Part shown: positions 39,162-62,857 of the stretch, piece by piece
Position numbering within the stretch: the stretch's first letter is position 1
How the letters are laid out: the number at the start of each line of letters is the position of its first letter
NCBI GenBank assembly: GCA_024636215.1
Contig: JAGXHL010000047.1
Span: 1-63,050, forward strand
Direction: 5' to 3'
DNA from: Deltaproteobacteria bacterium
Lineage (GTDB): Bacteria > Desulfobacterota > Desulfuromonadia > Desulfuromonadales > BM103
Length of the DNA: 63,050 bases
The notes under the pieces: model-generated
Told to the model about the DNA's origin: nothing
What the model saw: the letters and a program-made list of their open reading frames with translations, nothing else
The model's database searches: none
Translations under genes and position numbers: made by a program

Positions 39162-39995
39162 TCAAGCATAACTAAGCGGAAATTCGGTCAGTTCAGCGGC
39201 ACGGGAATAGGGAATCAACGCCCCGGTGGGGCAATGCTGCCAGAGTTCTTCGCGGTGGGAAGCATCGAAAACCCGCTTGTTGGTCGGAAAGGCCTGAGCG
39301 ACGCCAGCGATAATGGCCAGCTCGGCCTGGCTGAGCGGGGGAACAGCGGACAGATCGGCCTTGAGGATTTCATCGACCAGATCGCGATAATTGTTGAGCT
39401 GAGGTCCCATCGGCAAGGCCGCGTAGGTGGCCCCGGTGATACTTTGCCCCAGGTCACGGCTGGCGGCCATATCGGCGTACCAGAGGTATTTCGCCGCGTA
39501 AAGCATGCGGTCGTCTTTTTTCAATAATGGACGCCCTAATTGCGATTCAAAGGCATCAAGAACCAGGCGGATGCGCGGAATGGAAAAATCGCGGTTGCCG
39601 GTGTGTTCATTGCACGGATGCTCCTGCAGCAGAGTGCGTAACAGGTTATCCATTGATTTGCTTTGAATAACTCCGTTTTCCCAGCGTTTGATGCTGGCAA
39701 TACCGACTTCCAGAGCCTCAGCCAGCGCCTGTTGCGATAAGCTTTTTTCCTGGCGCAGATGACGAATCTCGTCACTGCTGAGCAGGCCAACGGCTTGCCG
39801 GTAAGCATCGGTCAGCCGTTCCTGCATGGTCGCGGCTTCTTCAATGTCAGCCAGCTCCAACCCGCAGTCGCGACACTTGTGCAACATGGCGGTGTAAGTA
39901 AAATCCACCCCTTTGAACTGGGCCTGTTTTTTAACATCGACCTGCGCGACTCGCCCCTGACAGCTGGGGCAGGACTCTTTCATAGATTGACTCAT
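39162..39995 (-). CDS. MqsA-type zinc-finger/HTH protein with Panacea (DUF4065) domain, antitoxin-like
   Basis: A 277-residue protein with three parts: an N-terminal zinc finger (CPSCQG, then CRDCG), an Xre-type helix-turn-helix at ~70-125 (RHLRQEKSLSQQALAEALEVGIASIKRWENG), and a C-terminal Panacea domain (KYLWYADMAASRDLGQSITGATYAALPMGPQLNNY). Panacea proteins neutralise diverse toxins encoded beside them. I start at 39995 (MSQSMKES) with GGAG upstream. The partner gene lies 14 bp upstream and a palindromic operator beyond it. Confidence 0.82.
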   Translation of the reverse strand: MSQSMKESCPSCQGRVAQVDVKKQAQFKGVDFTYTAMLHKCRDCGLELADIEEAATMQERLTDAYRQAVGLLSSDEIRHLRQEKSLSQQALAEALEVGIASIKRWENGVIQSKSMDNLLRTLLQEHPCNEHTGNRDFSIPRIRLVLDAFESQLGRPLLKKDDRMLYAAKYLWYADMAASRDLGQSITGATYAALPMGPQLNNYRDLVDEILKADLSAVPPLSQAELAIIAGVAQAFPTNKRVFDASHREELWQHCPTGALIPYSRAAELTEFPLSYA

Positions 39996-40009
39996 CTTGT
40001 GGTTCTCCC

Positions 40010-40381
40010 CTACTCCCCCGTACTGGTGCAAACATGCAGCGACACCAGGTAAAACCGTGCGTTCTGAAGAGAAAACTTGTAGTAAATGCGCGGCTCAAAT
40101 CTCTGGCAAGACACCGAAAACGCCCACAAATCAAGATTGCAAATCCGCTTTTCGTAAGATCTTTCCGGCGGATGGTGACCAGCGTAATGATCCGGCCCGG
40201 TATTGTTCAAAAGATCCAGCAAAACCAGTTGCAATTCATGCCGGATCGAATAACCAAGGGTCATAGCGTCGGCAACAATGACATCTGGCTCGATAAGGAT
40301 AATTCGATTGTCGTGAACCGCATCCAGCGCGACTTGCAGCTTGCCGTTCAGTTCCTTGTGACTCGGTCTCGGTCTTGCCAT
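40010..40381 (-). CDS. Putative toxin partner of the Panacea antitoxin
   Basis: A 123-residue cytoplasmic protein not assigned to a family by me. It has NRIILIEPDVIVADAMTLGY, HYAGHHPPERSYEKRI and a C-terminal IYYKFSLQNARFYLVSLHV, a strand pair somewhat like the end of small RelE/MqsR-type RNases. First gene of a two-gene unit with the Panacea protein, preceded by GAGGGG and a hairpin leader. The toxin role is inferred from position and size. Confidence 0.6.
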   Translation of the reverse strand: MARPRPSHKELNGKLQVALDAVHDNRIILIEPDVIVADAMTLGYSIRHELQLVLLDLLNNTGPDHYAGHHPPERSYEKRICNLDLWAFSVSCQRFEPRIYYKFSLQNARFYLVSLHVCTSTGE

Positions 40382-44671: not shown

Positions 44672-44752
44672 GTTCTCTTCGAAAACCCGGCTATCCTCAT
44701 GGGACCCGTGGCTTTGCGTCGCTGAATCGCTTCAACTTTGCCCTTATCGGAA
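44672..44752 (-). promoter_or_regulatory. GEMM-I (cyclic dinucleotide) riboswitch 1
   Basis: On the minus strand: GATAAGGGCAAAG, a short stem, CGACGCAAAGCC, a GGGTCCC stem, then GATAGCCGGGTTTTCG. This is the ordered signature of the c-di-GMP-I riboswitch (GEMM, Rfam RF01051). A second copy is at 45823. Relatives in Geobacter include GEMM-Ib aptamers that bind 3',3'-cGAMP; I cannot tell which ligand applies. It precedes the 44593 pseudogene and the 43504 gene. Confidence 0.85.
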
Positions 44753-45822: not shown

Positions 45823-45902
45823 CTCCGATAAGGGCAAAGCTGGAGTAATCCAGTGTCGCAAAGCTGAGGGTCCCATGTGGATAGCCTGGCTGTCGAAGAG
45901 AA
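45823..45902 (+). promoter_or_regulatory. GEMM-I (cyclic dinucleotide) riboswitch 2
   Basis: CCGATAAGGGCAAAGC, a stem, GTCGCAAAGC, GGGTCCCATG, then GATAGCCTGGCTGTCGAAGAG. Sequence order and spacing are nearly the same as riboswitch 1 on the other strand. Paired positions differ with compensation, for example GCTGG..CCAG in the first stem where riboswitch 1 has other bases. It leads into the terminator at 45921 and the gene at 45980. Confidence 0.85.
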
Positions 45903-50760: not shown

Positions 50761-51795
50761 ATGGCAAAGGCCATTAAGACGCTTCTGGCCGACTTTGACG
50801 GCCTAAATGAGAGCGACCAGAAGTTCGCATTCAACCAAATACGTGCCAAATTGTTCGGAGGTAACTTCCGCAACGCCGGCCTTCCACAGGAGGTTCGTGA
50901 GCGACGTTTTCACAAGGGCATCAACTGTTTCCATTGTTCTAGCCCAGAAGTTGTCAAAATCGGCAAATCAAGGCAGATACAGCGCTACAAGTGTAAGAGT
51001 TGCAACCGTACTTTTGGAGATCTGACAGCGACGCCCATGAACCGGACACGGTATCGCGACAAATGGATTGACTACTTCGAAATGATGATCGAGGGGAAGA
51101 CGATTAGGGAATGCGCCGAGACACTTGAAATAGCCGTTTCGACATCGTTCATGTGGCGACACAAAATACTCTTTGCCATCCTCGACCTCAGCCGGGAAAC
51201 GTTCGACGGGATTACCGAGGTTGACGAGACCTTTATGCGTCACTCAGAAAAGGGGAGCCGGAACATTGTTGGCCGCAAGCCACGCAAGAGAGGCGGCAGA
51301 GCACCGCTCCGCGGTATCAGCAAAGAGCAAGATTGTATCGTCGTTGCCATTGACCGTACCGGCCGAACTCATGGTCTCGTTGCATGCCGGGGCAGGCTGT
51401 CGAGAAAACAGGCGGAGGCGGTAATGGGCGAGTTGGTCTCAGGTGTAACAACGCTCTGTACTGACTCGCACAGTTCTTGGGAGGCCTTCGCCAAGAGCAA
51501 AGGGCTTGAGCATGTCGTTCTGAACGCGTCAAAGGGGGAACGCGTCAAGAAGACTGTCTACCACATCCAGAACGTCAACAACTTTCACCGGCGCTGGAAA
51601 GGTTGGATGGACAGATTCAACGGAGTGGCTTCCAAATTCCTGAATAACTACATAGCCTGGTTCTGCTTCCTAGATGCCCATAAGCGCGAGACAGACAGTT
51701 GTGCTCGTGAAGAGTTCCTGCTGGCTGCCTGCATGCTGGTCTCCCAAGTCACATTCAGGTCTATCCGAGAAGCAGAATTCACGTTGCCCGCTTAG
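50761..51795 (+). CDS. IS1595-family transposase
   Basis: A 344-residue transposase with an N-terminal zinc ribbon (CFHCSS, YKCKSCNRTF, ~residues 60-85), helix-turn-helix region (IRECAETLEIAVSTSFMWRHKI) and an ISXO2-like DDE domain: EVDETF, CTDSHSSWEAFA and NVNNFHRRWKGWMDRFNGVASKFLNNYIAWF. All motifs look intact. GGAGG precedes the ATG. Confidence 0.93.
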   Translation: MAKAIKTLLADFDGLNESDQKFAFNQIRAKLFGGNFRNAGLPQEVRERRFHKGINCFHCSSPEVVKIGKSRQIQRYKCKSCNRTFGDLTATPMNRTRYRDKWIDYFEMMIEGKTIRECAETLEIAVSTSFMWRHKILFAILDLSRETFDGITEVDETFMRHSEKGSRNIVGRKPRKRGGRAPLRGISKEQDCIVVAIDRTGRTHGLVACRGRLSRKQAEAVMGELVSGVTTLCTDSHSSWEAFAKSKGLEHVVLNASKGERVKKTVYHIQNVNNFHRRWKGWMDRFNGVASKFLNNYIAWFCFLDAHKRETDSCAREEFLLAACMLVSQVTFRSIREAEFTLPA

Positions 51796-52701: not shown

Positions 52702-53295
52702 TTAAATCTCTCTCAAATACGCATCTTTGATTTCATCTGGTTGGACGCACAAATATTCAAGAGTCTGCTTTTGGGTTGAGTGATTGAACATATTCATCAA
52801 TGTAGGGATGTCTGTCCCGAACTGGGTCCTATGTATATATCCAAATGTCTTGCGAAGAGTATGGCTCCCGTAGTTCCCTTTCAAGTTCAATTGAGCACAC
52901 CACCCTTTGACTAGCGCATTCAAATATGAAGTTGTCAAAGGGCCTCCACCTTTGCGTGACTTGAAAAGAAAATCTTCATCGTGCGCGTCAGGCATAACGG
53001 CGAGAAGATTTTGAATCGCATCGTAAACCGTCTTATTGATAGTGATGCGCCTCATCTTCTTGGTCTTCTTCTCCAGAAGCTCAAAATGATCTTCTATCTC
53101 AAGATAACGAAATTCGCCGACCCTAATCTTCAACAAATCACTCGCCCTAAGATTCGTGTTGATCCCAAGGGTGAACATTGCAAGATCTCTGGGTCGGTCA
53201 GCCAACAGTTTCTTGATCGTCTTGACATGCTTCAAATCTTTGATGGGGTCGACCCTGATTGTCGAACCTTTTCGCGGATGATTTCTAGCTGCCAT
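52702..53295 (-). CDS. Short tyrosine recombinase (integrase catalytic domain)
   Basis: A 197-residue protein consisting of the catalytic half of a tyrosine recombinase without the usual N-terminal arm-binding domain. Catalytic residues visible: Arg in GINTNLRASDLLKI, the HxxR box SHTLRKTFG, a His in MFNHSTQKQTL and the Tyr in LEYLCV. Stand-alone forms of this length occur in mobile regions. AAGGAG precedes the ATG. The nearby att-like tRNA piece at 40757 need not belong to it. Confidence 0.85.
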   Translation of the reverse strand: MAARNHPRKGSTIRVDPIKDLKHVKTIKKLLADRPRDLAMFTLGINTNLRASDLLKIRVGEFRYLEIEDHFELLEKKTKKMRRITINKTVYDAIQNLLAVMPDAHDEDFLFKSRKGGGPLTTSYLNALVKGWCAQLNLKGNYGSHTLRKTFGYIHRTQFGTDIPTLMNMFNHSTQKQTLEYLCVQPDEIKDAYLREI

Positions 53296-53377: not shown

Positions 53378-53440
53378 ACACAAAAACGCCGCAATCCCTT
53401 TACTGGTGGGCATTTGCGGCGTTTTCGCGAATATCAACTA
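53378..53440. repeat. Hairpin repeat H, copy 1
   Basis: ACGCCGCAA (53386-53394) and TTGCGGCGT (53414-53422) flank a CCC..GGG inner pair, preceded by AAAA and followed by TTTCGCGAATATCAACTA. On the minus strand the hairpin is followed by TTTTTG, so it can act as a terminator for the Cys-rich gene to its right. Similar copies are at 53977 and 56705. Confidence 0.85.
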
Positions 53441-53507
53441 AAAAAAGAAAGTTTAGGTTGGCCTTCAAGTTACGCCCCCATGGTGTGACTTTAGACTGAG
53501 CATCTAC

Positions 53508-53976: not shown

Positions 53977-54038
53977 CACGCAAAAACGCCGCAAACCCTG
54001 ACTGATGGGCATTTGCGGCGTTCACACGAACATCTACT
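53977..54038. repeat. Hairpin repeat H, copy 2
   Basis: ACGCCGCAA (53986-53994) and TTGCGGCGT (54013-54021) with the same flanks (CACGCAAAAA on the left, GAACATCTAC on the right) as copy 1. It lies upstream of the Cys-rich gene. Confidence 0.85.
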
Positions 54039-54074
54039 TCTTATTAAAATTGGCTCTCTACGCGTAATCTATTG

Positions 54075-54215
54075 ATATTGGCCACTAGAATCAGACAAAC
54101 CGTAGCATGATGACCACACTGTACAACAACTTGTCTAATTATCGGCAAATACTCCTTTTAGATGATCAGCTACCTACAAAATCAGCACAGAAAAACAATA
54201 GAAACTTAATCCTTC
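54075..54215. repeat. Dispersed repeat D, copy 1
   Basis: Shares AGAATCAGACAAA, then TTGTCTAATTATC, and a 3' segment AATAGAAACTTAAT with the copy at 55672-55810. The first two parts are inverted repeats of each other, so the element can fold. Confidence 0.65.
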
Positions 54216-54300
54216 AAGAGCAGACAAAGACTCAAAGAGGAAAAAAGATCTTCAACCGATCAACGGTTCATCAGGCGGCAAAGGGTTGCCTGAGTCTCAA

Positions 54301-54337
54301 CAGAAAAGCCCCGCATCCAAAATGCGGGGCTTTTCTG
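54301..54337. terminator. Strong intrinsic terminator
   Basis: CAGAAAAGCCCCGCAT and ATGCGGGGCTTTTCTG form a perfect 16-bp stem with loop CCAAA. It stands 26 bp before the CRISPR-like array, at the array's distal end if transcribed on the minus strand. Confidence 0.88.
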
Positions 54338-54362
54338 TTGTCTGAGAACATCGGCAAGCCGA

Positions 54363-54635
54363 GTCACTCACCGCCTACGCGACGGCAAACTGCACCAATC
54401 ATACGGTGCTTTTTCTAAGCCGCCTACGCGGCGGCAAACTGCACCAATCATACGGTGCTTTTTCTAAGCCGCCTACGCGGCGGCAAACTGCACCAATCAT
54501 ACGGTGCTTTTCCTAAGCCGCCTACGCGGCGGCAAATTGCACCAACCATACGGTGCTTTTTCTAAGCCGCCTACGCGGCGGCAAATTGCACCAATCATAC
54601 GGTGCTTTTTCTAAGCCGCCTACGCGGCGGCAAAC
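54363..54635 (-). CRISPR. Orphan type I-F-like CRISPR repeat array with near-identical 21-bp spacers
   Basis: Six 28-bp units start at 54363, 54412, 54461, 54510, 54559 and 54608, an exact 49-bp period. On the minus strand a unit begins GTTTGCCGCC, has a GCCGCC/GGCGGC stem around GCGTA, and ends GGCTTAGAAA, which is the layout of type I-F repeats (GTTCACTGCC..GGCAGC..TTAGAAA) with compensated stem changes. The first unit (54363-54390) is degenerate, as at the end of an array. The five 21-bp spacers are identical except one base in the fourth, and contain TGCACC..GGTGC. No cas gene is in the window. Confidence 0.65.
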
Positions 54636-54906
54636 ATGAACATGTAGAAAAAGTATCAAGATTCTACTGACCCCACAAGGGTCTTTTCAAAAAAATCACT
54701 TACATCTTTCGGAATCGCACAGCCGGTTGACCCTTAACGCGAATAAACACCATGCTCAAAACAGGTTGACGTCTTAGCAAACCAGCGACAATTTTCATAT
54801 CGTTCAATATTTGTCGACATCGATCTATATCAACAAATAAACATAGGCAGAAATTATTGTTCACTGGCATGGGAATTTCATTTCAACACTCTAGATGGAG
54901 GCTGAT
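54636..54906. other. Gap beside the CRISPR-like array (possible leader)
   Basis: A/T-rich, with GACCCCACAAGGGTC as a small inverted repeat near 54678. It would be the leader side of the array because the degenerate unit is at the other end. No gene is seen. Confidence 0.4.
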
Positions 54907-55584
54907 ATGGAATTCACAAGGATTGAGGAATTTAGACACACCAGTAGAAAAAAATTTCTAAGAGCTGCGAGCGAATATTATGGCATTAATGAGGGGCCAT
55001 TATCTGCGTTTCTCGAACACTATGATATTGAGCCAAAGGGATCCATGGGACCATCAGGGTTAGACGCGGCTCCACTTTTGATAAACGAAATTGCAGAAGG
55101 CGTTGGCTTGCTCGTGCCAGTGGTTGCGAGGTTACAGAAGATTGGAGTTATCAGTAGCCCTATAACCTGCGATGACATTACGTTCCTACAAGGTTACCGG
55201 CATGCTTCGGCCGACATTCGCCTGCATGCTAGTCTGCAAGATGTCTTGAATGCCGGCCCTGATTTCACTGAAAGATGGCAGAAATGGGTCTACTCAGAAT
55301 TCTTCTTTAGCGACACTGAACTTAGGTTCTGTGGGCGAATGGCTTCATTGGTATGGCAATCTACCATTAATCAAACGGCTGAAGATGTAGGAAAAAGATA
55401 TGGAATATCAATTTGTCAGAGCACGCGAGACGAGATTTTCGAAATTCGCGAGACCGCTTACAACGACCGCGAGAAAGTCAATCGAGGGGAAGCGTCAGAA
55501 AACTCTGTATTGAGGTCTCGAGGACTGCCAGAATCTGAGTTCGAGATTTTTAAAAATACATTTGTGTTCGACCTGTATTCATGA
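54907..55584 (+). CDS. Protein of unknown function
   Basis: Not recognised. 225 residues, no signal peptide or membrane helix. The C-terminal half has YGISICQSTRDEIFEIRETAYNDREKVNRGEAS, a charged helical stretch, and ends NTFVFDLYS. I start at 54907 because GGAGG lies five bases upstream; an in-frame ATG is at 54895. It stands alone between the CRISPR-like array and repeat D copy 2. Confidence 0.6.
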   Translation: MEFTRIEEFRHTSRKKFLRAASEYYGINEGPLSAFLEHYDIEPKGSMGPSGLDAAPLLINEIAEGVGLLVPVVARLQKIGVISSPITCDDITFLQGYRHASADIRLHASLQDVLNAGPDFTERWQKWVYSEFFFSDTELRFCGRMASLVWQSTINQTAEDVGKRYGISICQSTRDEIFEIRETAYNDREKVNRGEASENSVLRSRGLPESEFEIFKNTFVFDLYS

Positions 55585-55671
55585 TGCAAAATGGAGTGGG
55601 TTCAGGAAAATTCCAAGTTTACTCACCTTGGTCAGTTATTTACATTTAGGCTCTGTGCTCGTCATATGTTG

Positions 55672-55810
55672 GTATTGACCTCGAGAATCAGACAAAACAT
55701 AATACGCTTTTGACATCGTGCTAAGGTTTGTCTGATTTTCAATAAATAATACTTTTAAATCAATTACTTACAAAGACGGCATAGAACGGTAATAGAAATT
55801 ACATTTACAA
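55672..55810. repeat. Dispersed repeat D, copy 2
   Basis: Contains GAGAATCAGACAAAACATAA, TTTGTCTGATTTTC and AATAGAAATTACATT in the same order and spacing as 54075-54215. Inverted arms AATCAGACAAA and TTTGTCTGATT are perfect here. Between 55811 and 56154 I see no gene. Confidence 0.65.
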
Positions 55811-56704: not shown

Positions 56705-56770
56705 GTTACAAAAACGCCGCAAAACCCTTACTGTCTGGGATTTACGGCGTTTCTTCGGATATCAACTAAT
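56705..56770. repeat. Hairpin repeat H, copy 3
   Basis: ACGCCGCAA and TTACGGCGT (56714-56722 and 56742-56750; one wobble pair) with right flank CGGATATCAACTA as in copy 1. It lies 30-95 bp after the stop of the nuclease-like gene on the minus strand, followed there by TTTTTGT, so it can terminate the restriction-modification operon. Confidence 0.82.
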
Positions 56771-56799: not shown

Positions 56800-57873
56800 T
56801 CAAAGAGGGAAAAAATTCTTCAATCGCTCTACTGTATGAATCCATTTTGTCGTACTCGGTCGGCAGACGGAATTCTGATTACCAAAAAAGCCTACTTCAG
56901 AAACAGCCTCATTCAATGGCTTCGTTGACAGCCATTCAACGGGAACGAAGTATTCACAGTTCTCATCATCAGCAACATACTGTTGATGGTAGTTTGCTCG
57001 AGCAACTTCAAGAAACGGTTGCTGTACTCCATCAACCTCAATCTGAAATTCGTTGGCGCGAACAGATTGGTCAAGTACCCTGCCGACACCAACATATCCC
57101 TGCCCTGGGACATTCACCCAAACCCTGTCACCCGGGTTAAGCATTGAAAGTGTACGTGTGTACCACGCCCCTCCCCCTGCCGAGATAAAGCCATACTGTA
57201 TCGCTTCATCCCAATACCTATCTTCACCGTGCCCGAACGAGACGTAATATTCCCCATTCCATTCTCCACGCTCACCCGACTGTGCCGACGTCGCGCGAAT
57301 CTCAGTTTCGACGGGGTCTATTAACCATGCTCGACTTAAATACTGATTGTCACCATCCTGAAACACCTGGAAGAAAATAACATTGATCGCAACATCCATA
57401 TCGTTCAAATAATTGACGATGCGCTCTGTACTGGAATCGAGAGAAGACGCGACAACGACTATCTGGTGTGAACCGTTCAACTGGTCTTCATCTAGGGCCA
57501 AGCCGAACTTCAGTTTAAAGGCGTCATCTAGCGCGCCACCACTCGAGAAACGGTCGTAGATATGCGCAACTTCATCTGTTGTCAAACCCTTTACCCAAGA
57601 AGCGTAGTCCAGCGCTTGCGCAACAACCTCACGAGGAGTCTGATTGCGTTTAAGCTCAATAACAATCAATTGCCCATCTTGATTTACAGCGAGAAGGTCA
57701 ACGATACCTCCATGATCAGTTCTGACCTGCTGCCCAATCAACAACCAATGCGGAGAGAGGATGCTGGGATCAGAGACAATCATCTTTTCAAGCAAAGCTT
57801 CATTTTGAAGAGAGACTTCAACTAAAGGCTGTGGTTGCGTACCGACTTTCCAGACTGCATGGTTTATTGGCAT
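56800..57873 (-). CDS. NucS/DUF91-like PD-(D/E)XK nuclease-domain protein
   Basis: A 357-residue protein. The N-terminal ~190 residues carry GGIVDLLAVNQDGQLIVIELKRNQTPREVVAQALDYASWV, whose D..ExK pattern is that of DUF91/NucS-type nucleases. The C-terminal part (WNGEYYVSFGHGEDRYWDEAIQYGFISAGGG and GDRVWVNVPGQGYVGVGRV) is a separate domain that may read modified bases or DNA. Its ATG follows the hsdM stop with no gap, so it belongs to the restriction-modification operon. The cutting role is inferred. Confidence 0.75.
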   Translation of the reverse strand: MPINHAVWKVGTQPQPLVEVSLQNEALLEKMIVSDPSILSPHWLLIGQQVRTDHGGIVDLLAVNQDGQLIVIELKRNQTPREVVAQALDYASWVKGLTTDEVAHIYDRFSSGGALDDAFKLKFGLALDEDQLNGSHQIVVVASSLDSSTERIVNYLNDMDVAINVIFFQVFQDGDNQYLSRAWLIDPVETEIRATSAQSGERGEWNGEYYVSFGHGEDRYWDEAIQYGFISAGGGAWYTRTLSMLNPGDRVWVNVPGQGYVGVGRVLDQSVRANEFQIEVDGVQQPFLEVARANYHQQYVADDENCEYFVPVEWLSTKPLNEAVSEVGFFGNQNSVCRPSTTKWIHTVERLKNFFPL

Positions 57874-59394
57874 TTATTTTCCCCCTAGAGATATTATCCT
57901 ATTCTCCTCATCACTCTCCCCCAGATCCTCAGCAATCTCCCGGAACTGTTCCAAAGCCGCCTGAAGGTCTTCGACGATCTCAGCGGCAAGCACACCTGGC
58001 TCTGGGAGGTTATCAGAGTCTTCAAGAGAGTCGTCTTTCAGCCAGAAGATATCTAGGCTTGCTTTGTCGCGAGAAGTCAGCTCCTCGTACGAATAAGAGC
58101 GCCAGCGACCATCTTGTGTCTCTTCACCCCAGGTCGCTTTGCGCTGATTACGGTTGGTTGGGTTGTAGAGCTGAACAAACTCATCGAGGTCACTGCGCTT
58201 GAGCGGGTTGGTCTTGAGGGTGAAGTGCACATTAGTGCGCAGGTCGTAGATCCACAGCTTCTTGGTCCATGGTGATTCGCTGGCCGGCTTGCGGTCGAAG
58301 AAGATGACATTCGCTTTAACGCCCTGGGCGTAGAAGAGACCGGTCGGCAGGCGTAGCAGGGTATGGACATCACATTCGTGCAGCAGCTTGCGACGCACCG
58401 TCTCCCCTGCCCCACCTTCGAACAGCACATTGTCCGGCACGACCACGGCGGCGCGTCCATTCTGTTTGAGCAGGGTTTTAACATGCTGTATGAAATTTAG
58501 TTGTTTGTTCGATGTGGTGGCCCAGAAATCGTCGCGTTCAATGGTCTCGGTCTCGCGGGAGACTTTGCCGCCCTCGGCGACGATGGTGGTGCTACTCTTC
58601 TTGCCGAAAGGAGGATTGGTCAGGATAATGTTGAACCGGTCACCCGGATCGGAGGCCAGTGAATCGGCAACTGTCAGCGGCAGGTCACTATCGAGGCCGC
58701 TGATACCGTGCAGCATCAGGTTCATGGCACAAAGTCGTGCGGTCGCCTGTACCAACTCCCAGCCCTTGAAGGTCCCTTCCTTGAGTGCCTTAAGCTCTGT
58801 CTTGGTCATGTGCGGATTGTTACTAACCAAAGAGTCGTGCGCAGCGAGTAGAAAGCCTCCGGTCCCGCAGGCCGGATCACAGATGGTTTCACCCGGCTTG
58901 GGAGCAATAGCATCGACAATCGCCTGGATCAGAGGACGCGGGGTGAAATACTGTCCGGCACCGCTCTTGGTGTCTTGTGCGTTCTTCTCCAACAAGCCCT
59001 CATAGGCATCGCCTTTGACGTCGGCACTCATCACCGACCAGTTTTCATTGTCGATCAAATCGACGATCAGGCGGCGCAATTTGGCTGGGTCCTGGAACTT
59101 GTTTTGCGACTTGTTGAAAATCAGCCCGAGCAGGCCTTTCTCGTTGCCGAGATTTTCCAGGGTGTGACGGTAGTGATCGAAGAGTTCGTCGCCGTCTTTC
59201 TTCACCACTGTTGGCCACGAGTAATCAGCCGGTACGTTGCTCGGCTGGTTGTAGGGCGGCTTGGTCCGTTCATCGGCCATCTTAAGGAAGAGCAGATAGG
59301 TGAGCTGTTCAACGTAGTCGCCGTAGCTCATACCGTCGTCACGAAGGACGTTACAGAAGTTCCAGAGTTTGCTTACGATTGCTGCTGGAGTCAT
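57874..59394 (-). CDS. hsdM: Type I restriction-modification system methyltransferase subunit
   Basis: A 506-residue N6-adenine methyltransferase. The helical N-terminal domain covers ~1-140. SAM-binding motif I is ICDPACGTGGFLLAAHDSL after GAGQYFTPRPLIQAIVDAI, and the catalytic motif IV is ILTNPPFGKKS. Works with HsdS for sequence recognition. It is 2 bp after the KAP-NTPase gene. No hsdR is seen in the window. Confidence 0.95.
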   Translation of the reverse strand: MTPAAIVSKLWNFCNVLRDDGMSYGDYVEQLTYLLFLKMADERTKPPYNQPSNVPADYSWPTVVKKDGDELFDHYRHTLENLGNEKGLLGLIFNKSQNKFQDPAKLRRLIVDLIDNENWSVMSADVKGDAYEGLLEKNAQDTKSGAGQYFTPRPLIQAIVDAIAPKPGETICDPACGTGGFLLAAHDSLVSNNPHMTKTELKALKEGTFKGWELVQATARLCAMNLMLHGISGLDSDLPLTVADSLASDPGDRFNIILTNPPFGKKSSTTIVAEGGKVSRETETIERDDFWATTSNKQLNFIQHVKTLLKQNGRAAVVVPDNVLFEGGAGETVRRKLLHECDVHTLLRLPTGLFYAQGVKANVIFFDRKPASESPWTKKLWIYDLRTNVHFTLKTNPLKRSDLDEFVQLYNPTNRNQRKATWGEETQDGRWRSYSYEELTSRDKASLDIFWLKDDSLEDSDNLPEPGVLAAEIVEDLQAALEQFREIAEDLGESDEENRIISLGGK

Positions 59395-59396
59395 TA

Positions 59397-61550
59397 TTAA
59401 TATTTATCCCCTTCTGTGTAATCCACAAGGTATATAGGTTTACCAGACAACATAGATAGGTATGTCGCCTTTACATGGTTCGTTATTTCCTCATCATCGC
59501 CGAGTCTTTCAGCAACCTTTTCTCTGATTTCGTCTAGCCCAAATAGGTTTTCTAACGTTTCCTTGCGAACGTACACATTTTGACCTTTATGAGAATCAAC
59601 ACCGATTGAGCATAGAGACTCAGCAACGCAATCAAGCCCCTCCTTGCTGTCAAGCAGTGTGCGGCAAAGAATTTTAGCTAACTCAATATCCATCTTACGT
59701 AGAAGGAACAACACGTCTTTCTTCCCGGTCAACAAGCAATAATGATTTCTCTCAAAGGAATTCTTTACAGCTTCAACCCACTGAGTTTTGATTTGATCCA
59801 GTTCTTCGTCTGTGCACCATCTTTGTTCCTCACCAACCACATCATCAGTACCGAAAAAGCCAACCTGGGCAAAACAATGAATTAACCCATGAGTCCCTAG
59901 AGACAGCTTTTCTGGATTAGCAACTAATTGGGAAAGAAAATTAAACTTAGAGCCTTTATTGAGAGGGGCTAGGTATTTTTTGAGAACCCACCAAATCTTC
60001 CTGTCTATAGCGACATCTACAAAACCAGTCGGACGAAGACTCATTTGATAGACAAAACGAGTATCAACCAGATTGGACAAATGCATTACAAAGTCTTCTG
60101 GCTGAGCAGGCTTAACATCTCCAATTTTCAAATGTAAGCCATCGACAAAACCATCGATATCCTCCTCATTCAAAACCTGTCCAATGATTTCTTCTCTCTT
60201 TTCAGGACAAGTCAAAAAAGCATTTGAAACTTCAATAGAGATTTCACCTCTTGGTAAGCCATATGAGTGAATAGCCAACAAACGGTCAGAAGCTGCAACC
60301 CAACCATTTTTTCGACAATAATCTTGGTTGTGGGAATGGTCTAGCTCACTGAGAATAGGGAACAACTCCTCTAGCAAAACTCTCATTGAGGTAACAATGC
60401 CGCCTGACAGCTTCTCCAGTTTCTTATCCCTAACCTCTGCATACTTCGCGACATAGTCCGCAGGTTTTTCAATCAAAAAGCTAACTCCTGGAGGCACACC
60501 TGTGTAAGCGCCAGGCAACTCTTTAATATGCTCATAAATTGCTGGCGCTTTTATCCCTACCACCTCTAAAGCAAATAGATCTGCAAATTCAACTTCCCCC
60601 CTGATAGTCGGTTCAATCAATTTGATCCGATTAAACAACCTCTTCACATCTCGGGGAGAAGTAAGTAAATATTTTATTGCGCCCTGGTAAAAGTGACCTA
60701 AACGAGACTTGTTTGCTGGAAAGTATTCTTCCTTAGCCTCTACTGGCAAAAGTGCAAGTTCATCATTTACAAGCTTTTCGATATCTTTGGTTGAGATGAT
60801 CGGCAAAGTGATTCTAGCTTGAATAATTTTATCCAGGTAATGGTCACCTTTATTTATTCCAAACCGGTGTAGCGAATCAACAACATATGAAGAATCAAGC
60901 GCCAGGACAAAGGCAACTCTAGGGAAGTCAGCAACCGATTTCACTAGGCGGATAATGTCATATATTTCTTCAGGTGGGATTCTGTCTATGTCATCAATGA
61001 AAACAACAATTGGCTTATTAAGTTTACCCAGTGCTTCGACAACCTTATCTCTTCTACCTTCAATATTCAGTTCTTTCAACTTGCCAACAGAAGACGTTGC
61101 TTCTCCGACACTACCCATGACTCCCTGAACAATTGAGGCCCAAGGTTCAGCCCCCGGCACAAACTTTAATACTGAAAAAACTTTCGAGTAAGAGATGAGC
61201 TGCCGAGCGACATTCTTTGCCTGACCTGCATTATCAGACGCCCCAATTGTCGCAGCAAACTGCACGAGAAACTCTTGTACTAGATTTTCTACCCCACTTA
61301 TCATCCACGGGCAGAAATTAAACGTAATTGGTCGATCATCGATTGGCAGTGACTCAAAGTATTTGTTAGTCAGGTTGATGAATGAAGTCTTTCCATAGCC
61401 CCACTCACCTTCTATAGAGACAACAATACCTGGGGCTCCTTCTGTCAACAGAAGTCCACGACCAATACGCTGAGCAAATTCTTCGCGACCTAACAAATCA
61501 GGGCTGTCCACCTCGCCAGTAATTGGGCTATCTGTATGGAATTGACTCAT
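59397..61550 (-). CDS. KAP-family P-loop NTPase
   Basis: A 717-residue NTPase. Walker A lies in SIEGEWGYGKTSFINL near residue 47, Walker B in PIVVFIDDIDRIPPEEI near 190, followed by FPRVAFVLALDSSYVV and the sensor-like region YLDKIIQARITLPIIS, the KAP family order. No clear transmembrane helices, unlike classical KAP proteins. I start at ATG 61550; GTG at 61568 is also in frame. Set between hsdS and hsdM, it suggests an accessory role in the defence operon. Confidence 0.88.
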   Translation of the reverse strand: MSQFHTDSPITGEVDSPDLLGREEFAQRIGRGLLLTEGAPGIVVSIEGEWGYGKTSFINLTNKYFESLPIDDRPITFNFCPWMISGVENLVQEFLVQFAATIGASDNAGQAKNVARQLISYSKVFSVLKFVPGAEPWASIVQGVMGSVGEATSSVGKLKELNIEGRRDKVVEALGKLNKPIVVFIDDIDRIPPEEIYDIIRLVKSVADFPRVAFVLALDSSYVVDSLHRFGINKGDHYLDKIIQARITLPIISTKDIEKLVNDELALLPVEAKEEYFPANKSRLGHFYQGAIKYLLTSPRDVKRLFNRIKLIEPTIRGEVEFADLFALEVVGIKAPAIYEHIKELPGAYTGVPPGVSFLIEKPADYVAKYAEVRDKKLEKLSGGIVTSMRVLLEELFPILSELDHSHNQDYCRKNGWVAASDRLLAIHSYGLPRGEISIEVSNAFLTCPEKREEIIGQVLNEEDIDGFVDGLHLKIGDVKPAQPEDFVMHLSNLVDTRFVYQMSLRPTGFVDVAIDRKIWWVLKKYLAPLNKGSKFNFLSQLVANPEKLSLGTHGLIHCFAQVGFFGTDDVVGEEQRWCTDEELDQIKTQWVEAVKNSFERNHYCLLTGKKDVLFLLRKMDIELAKILCRTLLDSKEGLDCVAESLCSIGVDSHKGQNVYVRKETLENLFGLDEIREKVAERLGDDEEITNHVKATYLSMLSGKPIYLVDYTEGDKY

Positions 61551-61587
61551 CAAAAAAGCTCTCTTCACTTAGAGTTGTTTACAAGTT

Positions 61588-62857
61588 TTATTGCACGGTA
61601 AGTTGACCGGAAAATGCTTTTTTGAGAATTGACTGGCGTAGGCGGTCAGAACGCTTGAGGTCAACATCGACCTGATTTTCTAGCCTTTCAATAAGTGATA
61701 GGCGACTCTCGACTACTGAGACAATCTCACCTTGTTCATCTAACGGTGGCACGGGAACAAACAGGGCTTGAAGCTTTGTTCCATTGACATTTGCCTGCCC
61801 AACTTGCTGAGTAACAACTGACTTAACCCACATTCGCCCGAAGTGAGAATTGATGTAGTAGCTGAGGAATTTTGATGAGTAATTTGAGGCCACCCGAACC
61901 CTGATAAGATAAGAAGCAAAAGAGCAAGGCTCAATTGTCCCCTCGTATACAGCAGTTTTGCCGACGAGTTCAGGACTATTTGTACGATTAAAAAGCATAT
62001 CACCAGATTTCAGAAATAATTCTGGGAACTCATCATGGTTAGCGGGGAGAAACTTAAGTTTCTCCCAATCGAGAGAGCCATTAATGATGTTGCCCATGCG
62101 CAAAACAGGAATACCCGTTTCATCTTCTGACGTTTTTGATGAAGATCCGTACTGTACGACCTTACTTATTTGAGCCACAGTCGCCCACACCCACCCCACC
62201 GGCAATTCTGGCAAGCCTGTCGTATCAGGAACAACGGGCTCCTTATACTTCCCTCTACCCTGCCAATTCGCCCGCCGCTCTTCAAGAATCCGCTCCAACA
62301 GCTTGTCGGCAGGTTCAACATCAGGATGCTGCTTACGCCATTCTTCGGTGAGTTTACCTTCGACGGCGGCTTTGAGGACGGCGGCTTTGTAGCGCTTGAG
62401 GTTGGCCTTGACGCGCTTGAGGTTGGCGACGGCTTCATCGAGGCGGGAGAATTGCTTTTCGATCTCCTCGACGATGCGCTTTTGTTGTTCCAGAGGAGCA
62501 AATTGAATCGGCACTTCGTTAAGCTGTTTTTTGCTAATTACGCCTTGTGCTGACCCCGAGGAAGACGCTCTCAGTTTCAAAACCCAAGGGAGTAACTGGT
62601 AGTAGATGAATCGTGTATCTGTTCCTTCTTTAGGCCGAATAGCGGCAACACTTCGGCCAATTGAGCAGTCGATGCCTAAATTTAACTTACCTGACGTAGC
62701 ACCAACGACACAGATAAAGACATCCCCTTTTTTGCCATACTTAAGAGGTTTCGTTGTCCACTCTCTCTCCAAGGGGAACAGAGTGCTAAACTCACCGGCC
62801 TTTACAAAAACAGTCCCGTTCCCATCTTTGTTACATTCGTTTCCTGGAGGTGCCCCC
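61588..62857 (-). pseudogene. hsdS: Type I specificity subunit, 5' end removed by an insertion sequence
   Basis: The frame is open from 62857 (about LTQGAPPGNECNKDG, the start of the first target-recognition domain) to 61588. The first TRD is nearly whole, the central coiled spacer (EQQKRIVEEIEKQFSRLDEAVANLKRVKANLKRYKAAVLKAA) and second TRD (WVWATVAQISKVVQYGSSSKTSED) plus C-terminal coil (SLIERLENQVDV) are intact. The first ~20-30 codons, including the true start, are replaced by the insertion sequence. A TTG at 62772 could still start a 394-residue product missing part of TRD1. Confidence 0.82.

Follow-up and report, generated by a model that had tools for sequence, protein, structure and literature searches.

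The closest described relatives of the locus analysed here are RNAs that imitate the type I-F CRISPR repeat or make short use of it. RacrIF1 consists of one solitary repeat; its active product is devoid of the 5′ handle, it yields a Cas6f/Cas7f subcomplex without Cas5f/Cas8f, and type I-F immunity is weakened when RacrIF1 or a non-targeting crRNA is supplied as competitor (PMC10651486, excerpted text). The SRUFinder screen described in the same excerpt grouped full repeat matches less than 100 bp apart into arrays and set these aside. CreR is a crRNA-like repressor of cas operons of type I and type V-A (excerpt of PMC12737573); it is single-copy, lies beside its own cas operon and has a guide that matches the operon promoter. 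In type I-B, short guides repress without interference (excerpt of PMC10989794), and virus-borne mini-arrays have a single spacer or two, directed for the most part at related viruses (excerpt of PMC11656645). The length rules of type I-F1 are known from biochemistry: Cascade assembles on spacers of 14–176 nt according to L = 6N − 4 for N Cas7f, truncation of the spacer by even 6 nt abolishes Cas2/3 cleavage, and licensing of Cas2/3 fails below a spacer length of 32 nt (excerpt of PMC7296934), the crRNA serving as a ruler for Csy3 oligomers (excerpt of PMC6828817). No description of tandem short-guide arrays or of phage-borne creR was found in those parts of the openly licensed literature that were available, and subscription papers may hold one.

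The window, i.e. the whole stretch of 63,050 nucleotides analysed, carries on its − strand an array of five full type I-F repeats followed by a sixth stem without handle (Table 1). TRF reports a single array (54371–54635, period 49, 5.4 copies, 96% matches, no indels) with a repeat-to-repeat distance of exactly 49 nt throughout, in agreement with an earlier note on this DNA that had described six units at a 49-bp period, the leftmost of them degenerate. The repeat is GTTTGCCGCCGCGTAGGCGGCTTAGAAA, with a middle unit that differs by ending in TTAGGAA, and it has the 28-bp length, the 5-bp stem and the CTNAGAAA end of I-F repeats. Three of the five full units match Rfam CRISPR-DR4 (RF01317) on the − strand above its gathering score, which substantiates the proposed type I-F likeness, and 3–8 mismatches separate the repeat from canonical I-F repeats (20 loci compared; a reverse-strand row of L013, at 12 mismatches, is spurious and was left out). 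The stem changes that the note had called compensated indeed hold against CTGCC/GGCAG repeats as well as in phage relatives, where C-G is replaced by U-A at the loop-closing pair in 5 of 14 rows in each stem; in the leftmost unit a 5-bp stem, CCGTC/GGCGG, is retained with one G-U pair. The distinct ∼32-bp spacers at period 60 that characterize I-F arrays are replaced in the window by near-identical 21-nt spacers at period 49, namely five copies of AAGCACCGTATGATTGGTGCA, one of which has a single change.

Table 1. Features of the array, its predicted signals and its neighbourhood, in window coordinates
Feature	Coordinates	Strand	Remark
Predicted sigma-70-like promoter	54661..54690	-	TTGAAA-18-TAGAAT (10/12)
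Inverted repeat GACCCcacaaGGGTC between −35 and −10 boxes	54669..54683	.	GACCC-5-GGGTC
Full type I-F repeat unit 1, promoter-proximal	54608..54635	-	Rfam CRISPR-DR4 match
Full type I-F repeat unit 2	54559..54586	-	
Full type I-F repeat unit 3	54510..54537	-	Handle CTTAGGAA
Full type I-F repeat unit 4	54461..54488	-	Rfam CRISPR-DR4 match
Full type I-F repeat unit 5	54412..54439	-	Rfam CRISPR-DR4 match
Five 21-nt spacers (region 54391..54607)	54391-54411, 54440-54460, 54489-54509, 54538-54558, 54587-54607	-	
Terminal unit	54363..54390	-	Stem-loop kept (54371-54385, CCGTCGCGTAGGCGG); 5′ handle lost, TGAGTGAC in place of CTTAGAAA
Predicted intrinsic terminator	54298..54340	-	Perfect 19-bp inverted repeat GCCCCGCAT/ATGCGGGGC, T-rich tail
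Phage-type integrase	52702..53295	-	Tyrosine recombinase PF00589; nearest recognised mobility gene
IS1595-type transposase	50761-51795		Further left of the integrase
Defence block	56800-62772	-	PDC-S11 candidate, type I methylase, PifA-like KAP NTPase, type I specificity subunit

Each window spacer forms a hairpin, GCACCG-loop-TGGTGC, and together with the first 5 nt of the next repeat reaches −9.5 kcal/mol, a value equalled by only 2 of 200 dinucleotide shuffles; the self-folding, at most one base of difference between copies and the 21-bp length had all been pointed out before. At 364 nt, the predicted transcript has a far more stable fold than its shuffled versions (z −9.2, 0/100). In this whole-transcript fold the spacer hairpins persist and many repeat stems pair with neighbouring repeats, a predicted stem–stem pairing that would count against reading the units as crRNA mimics.

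The −10 box of the predicted promoter ends 30 nt ahead of the first stem, with a predicted transcript start at about 54654. The inverted repeat between the two boxes, of which the window holds no other perfect copy, is a possible repressor site. At the distal end, where a strong terminator had been noted, the hairpin listed in Table 1 was recovered, and from its predicted signals the locus looks like a complete promoter–array–terminator cassette. In line with the reported lack of cas genes, none was found in the 63-kb contig by tblastn or, near the array, by PADLOC. The tblastn queries comprised 54 ORFs of at least 150 aa, drawn from 12 loci that carry cas genes or an I-F array, and matches in the window were confined to one ORF, at three places, two of these being ABC-transporter genes; PADLOC on seven proteins near the array gave no cas family among the matches listed.

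The cassette sits between the integrase and the defence block, probably on a mobile island, and no phage structural gene was recognised beside it; the remaining contig holds core chromosomal genes (PyrG, RpoN, PtsI, AhcY, RapZ and HprK). Comparison of RapZ with 148 sampled genomes, from the phylum of a Desulfovibrio MAG, gave a best match at 52–53% identity and hence a loose class placement, within which cas6f was found in 1 of 98 sampled genomes; the repeat of that lone cas6f genome differs from that of the window at 7 of 28 positions. Several further elements were seen in the surroundings. Dispersed intergenic repeats at 53380–53441, 53979–54040 and 56708–56769 form hairpins (AACGCCGCAA..TTGCGGCGTT), and a 160-bp block, 67% identical between its copies, occurs at 54041–54204 and 55636–55798; these repeats and the block perhaps mark cassette boundaries in the island. 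Divergent from the array, 54895–55584 (+) encodes a 229-aa orphan protein for which two homologues besides itself, at 72–77% identity, were reported among 5.8 billion proteins. Elsewhere in the window lie two divergent c-di-GMP-I riboswitches ∼1.1 kb apart (44678–44752, −; 45823–45897, +) and a fused MqsA/HTH and Panacea (SocA-like) antitoxin-type protein (39162–40031, −), and the contig starts with a (GCGTGTG)n tandem repeat at 1–61.

Neither RNA anti-CRISPRs nor creR, a crRNA-like RNA upstream of cas genes, figured among the comparisons of the earlier note, and both share traits with the window array. Like RacrIF1, it is an I-F repeat mimic away from cas genes, with its own (predicted) promoter and a stem that by sequence is Cas6f-competent, whereas it is not solitary: it has six tandem stems with constant short spacers, and its internal products would bear both a 5′ handle and a 3′ stem. 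The CreR succession of stem, handle, short guide and second stem without an intact handle is also displayed by the window array, which in contrast to CreR is orphan and multi-copy and repeats a single hairpin guide, for which no target was found. With type I-F arrays it shares the sequence and orientation of the repeat and a degenerate terminal repeat, but its spacers are 21 rather than 32 nt long and all alike, and there are no cas genes at the locus. Virus-borne mini-CRISPRs are short arrays on mobile elements that use host Cas proteins (excerpt of PMC11656645), as the window array would probably be too, although the window repeats one short spacer whose core has no exact viral match.

A search for two I-F repeats at a period of 32–56 gave nine viral loci, with matched-pair periods of 36, 46, 47, 48, 48, 48, 49, 50 and 50. 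Wider patterns followed by a strict stem filter raised this to at least 52 rows, at least 47 of which lie in viral loci, and these collapse to at least 46 independent groups (at least 41 viral and at least 19 with three or more stems). A control pattern with off-register spacing gave nine loci, none of which passed the stem filter. Among the matches listed, the median period is 46–49 in 26 of the 46 groups, as against 10.2 expected if periods were uniform over 40–57; observed periods begin at 42, with none at 40–41, and the mode at 46–49 corresponds to guides of 18–21 nt. In terms of the I-F1 rule, a period of 48 gives L = 20 and four Cas7f, and a period of 42 gives L = 14, the reported lower limit. 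Just two stems are present in 27 of the 46 groups among the matches listed, and some of these may be due to chance. The last stem is handle-less in 36 of the 46 groups among the matches listed, a figure inflated by the search pattern, and in 17 of the 27 listed groups with at least two full units.

The flanking signals recur as well. A promoter scoring at least 9/12 precedes 10 of 24 arrays versus 2.7% of 480 random stretches, and a terminator follows 13 of the 24 versus 3.75% of random stretches, the set of 24 including two near-duplicate pairs as well as L008 and L015. L291, with six units at period 44, has near-identical spacers, as do L137, L268 and L004 in part, and an array in a Desulfovibrio MAG (L020) combines near-identical hairpin spacers with a promoter and a terminator. 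Spacer hairpins were rejected as a class-wide trait: 10 of 47 linkers outside the window beat 90% of shuffles, the control giving 27 of 300. The hairpin guide, unusual for the class, could hinder Cas7f loading. As judged from these comparisons, the predicted layout of the window is the same as that of a recurrent phage and prophage class. One viral contig (L008:1970–2028) carries two type I-F repeats 36 nt apart with a 12/12 promoter in front; this spacing is below the reported limit for Cascade assembly, and the locus was kept apart from the 46 groups. In L056:1–1118, L119:371–1506, L101, L022, L007 and L004 the array comes after a recurring gene pair: one product, of ∼250 aa, shows the motif WRAPTSWE..GEGSFTG and is PHROG 8351-like in L056 and L119, and the other has ∼125 aa. 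The pair may regulate the array or act as its partners.

When GTDB contigs were scanned for periods of 42–53, 22 loci emerged, 13 of which are 60-period arrays with one short spacer each. Three others (L019, L021 and L026) were rejected as short-period arrays and look like lysine-rich coding repeats, and L020, L022, L023 and L031 are stand-alone short arrays. Two loci are ambiguous in the grouping: L015, on the contig of its own cas6f, was left out of the 46 groups, and L031, which neighbours housekeeping genes and whose genome lacks cas6f, was included. A Thauera MAG (L017) holds I-F-like repeats at irregular spacing, mostly 50–60 nt, over several kb; it is likewise ambiguous and is perhaps a decaying array or a product of poor assembly. 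By blastn, the window array has a weak match in one phage. Of its plasmid matches, the three best places examined are canonical 60-period I-F arrays. The phage cassettes L154, L137 and L119 had no relatives in the phage collection, and L065 had none in E. coli genomes.

To relate the class to CreR, we examined the regions upstream of csy1 at 46 loci (16, plus 30 from 52 further csy1-bearing genomes; L298 is the same locus as L293, and L311 and L312 each represent the second fragment of a split csy1). A creR-like unit is present at 10 of the 46 and was not detected at the remaining 36. In nine of the ten units the guide has a CC-flanked self-target with a seed of at least 8 in its own csy1 upstream region, and the tenth has a seed of 7, whereas the shuffled control gives a mean of 0.09 and a maximum of 1. 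A second stem follows 43–54 nt further on in nine of the ten; a creR-like unit at L295, though self-targeting, was dropped from the count by a 60-bp rule. A covariance model, R1, was derived exclusively from 14 phage units. Among 68 csy1-bearing genomes, searched with stricter filters and 78 candidates scored per genome, it finds 11 places at E ≤ 1e-10 (a cut set once scores had been seen), nine of them 260–532 bp upstream of csy1, as obtained by coordinate subtraction; the other two are the prophage array L022 and, in G006, a short spacer of a canonical array. The two-stem unit of the phage and prophage class and the creR-like RNAs upstream of csy1 are therefore recognised by one covariance model. 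R1 scores the window array at 35–41 bits, compared with 30–45 (L034) and 43 (L295) for canonical 60-period pairs, i.e. no higher, so that R1 alone does not separate the window from an ordinary array.

A further connection comes from the prophage array L022 (L022:1857–2060) of Azonexus sp. R2A61, a genome with both cas6f and csy1. The array adjoins a superinfection-exclusion-like gene and has methylase, portal and terminase genes on one side. Of the five guides that L022 and L023 carry, each checked against the cas locus of its own host, one from L022 matches a site upstream of the host csy1 beside CC, with a 9-nt seed and 15 of 20 positions; a score of 15 anywhere in the 18-kb locus is reached by 2 of 2000 shuffles. 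The target region lies between csy1 and a large ORF, which from its place and size is taken for cas2/3. The host has a unit of its own (L293:7234–7372), composed of stem, handle, a guide starting AAGTAGTTTCC, a handle-less stem and a T run, with promoter-like sequence adjacent; its guide has the same seed and the same target as that of L022, and the unit is a predicted creR-like RNA. L023, the other stand-alone array in a cas6f host, has no match to the csy1 upstream region of its host, giving one match in two such arrays. For the class as a whole, 3 of 70 distinct guides agree with host creR guides at 10 or more of 12 seed positions versus 0.18 for shuffles, L022 being among the three, and 16 of 70 reach 8 of 12 versus 6.2 for shuffles. 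Against the pooled csy1 regions, a seed of 8 is found for 20 of 70 guides versus 10.2 (p 0.002), and a seed of 9 for 5 of 70 versus 3.1 (p 0.18), which is no enrichment.

The window guide itself gave no convincing target in the 46 csy1 upstream regions sampled, its best seed being 7. A target inside the window was rejected, as just a chance-level seed of 8 was seen, and the 18-nt spacer core has no exact match in viral contigs.

Taken together, we consider the window cassette to be probably a multi-copy crRNA mimic directed at type I-F CRISPR-Cas, a putative anti-CRISPR RNA of creR or Racr kind. The − strand transcript would be cut by Cas6f supplied in trans to ∼49-nt RNAs (5′ start CUUAGAAA), each with a normal 5′ handle, a 21-nt guide and a 3′ stem. 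On these RNAs a short Cascade of Cas5f/Cas8f, about four Cas7f and Cas6f would assemble, unable to license Cas2/3; for the class, the guide lengths and the I-F1 length rules together imply RNAs that would build a binding, non-cutting Cascade. The element would be protected by titration of Cascade, by serving as an additional creR through which Cascade is made to repress the csy operon, or by the two together, and the near-identical tandem copies would raise the dose of mimic RNA. More tentatively, it is quite possible that phages and islands carry multi-copy creR mimics in general, whose non-cutting Cascade both occupies the machinery and shuts down cas transcription, and that the window represents an amplified form.

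A narrower version of the crRNA-mimic reading, which we regard as possible though somewhat doubtful, is a pure decoy of Racr type, in which the array just titrates Cas6f and Cascade, the spacer is targetless, and its hairpin merely separates the units or stalls Cas7f filaments. The constant, self-complementary spacers of the window agree with this, as do the inhibition of type I-F by RacrIF1 and by a non-targeting crRNA (excerpt of PMC10651486) and the dosage that tandem copies supply. A role as decoy can be claimed more safely for the window, as its guide has given no target, and the hairpin guide fits the decoy a little better. Against titration as the whole explanation for the class stand the seed match of the L022 guide to the csy1 upstream region of its host and the resemblance of class guides to host creR guides; moreover, RacrIF1 is solitary and its active product lacks the very 5′ handle (excerpt of PMC10651486) that the window units keep.

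The earlier note had left a choice between a collapsed, tandemly duplicated CRISPR relic and a repurposed array producing many copies of one small RNA. The predicted promoter, the terminator and the recurrent phage layout favour the second. The first, in which one truncated repeat–spacer unit of an I-F array was duplicated and has no function today, appears unlikely. A degenerate terminal repeat is usual in real CRISPR arrays too, and the orphan location in a contig with no cas genes found, together with the failure of R1 to rank the window above canonical pairs, is what a relic would also display. Canonical arrays do hold short spacers, but as single outliers (13 of the 22 loci); it is because every window spacer is 21 nt long, all five being alike, and because promoter and terminator signals are present that the relic is less likely, and the layout moreover recurs in at least 41 independent viral groups.

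A mini-CRISPR for inter-element conflict, whose spacer would guide host Cascade at a competing phage or plasmid, has precedents in virus-borne mini-arrays (excerpt of PMC11656645) and would be served by a repeat suited to type I-F; it is nevertheless highly improbable, as a 21-nt guide should not license Cas2/3 (excerpt of PMC7296934), one spacer is present in five copies and its core has no exact viral match. That the array is a 49-bp tandem repeat of non-CRISPR nature (e.g. a protein-binding or recombination site) resembling I-F by chance is scarcely credible, for although further dispersed repeats occur in the same island, three units exceed the Rfam CRISPR-DR4 cut-off and loop, stem and handle are all I-F-like.

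The reading as a multi-copy crRNA mimic bears on how such RNAs have been surveyed, since in the excerpted account of the published Racr survey (PMC10651486) the whole layout of tandem short-guide arrays was passed over. The I-F1 biochemistry (excerpt of PMC7296934) predicts that guides of 14–26 nt assemble Cascade without triggering Cas2/3, and the guides of the class fall within this range. If the creR link is true, phages would be exploiting the RNA feedback loop of the immune system itself.
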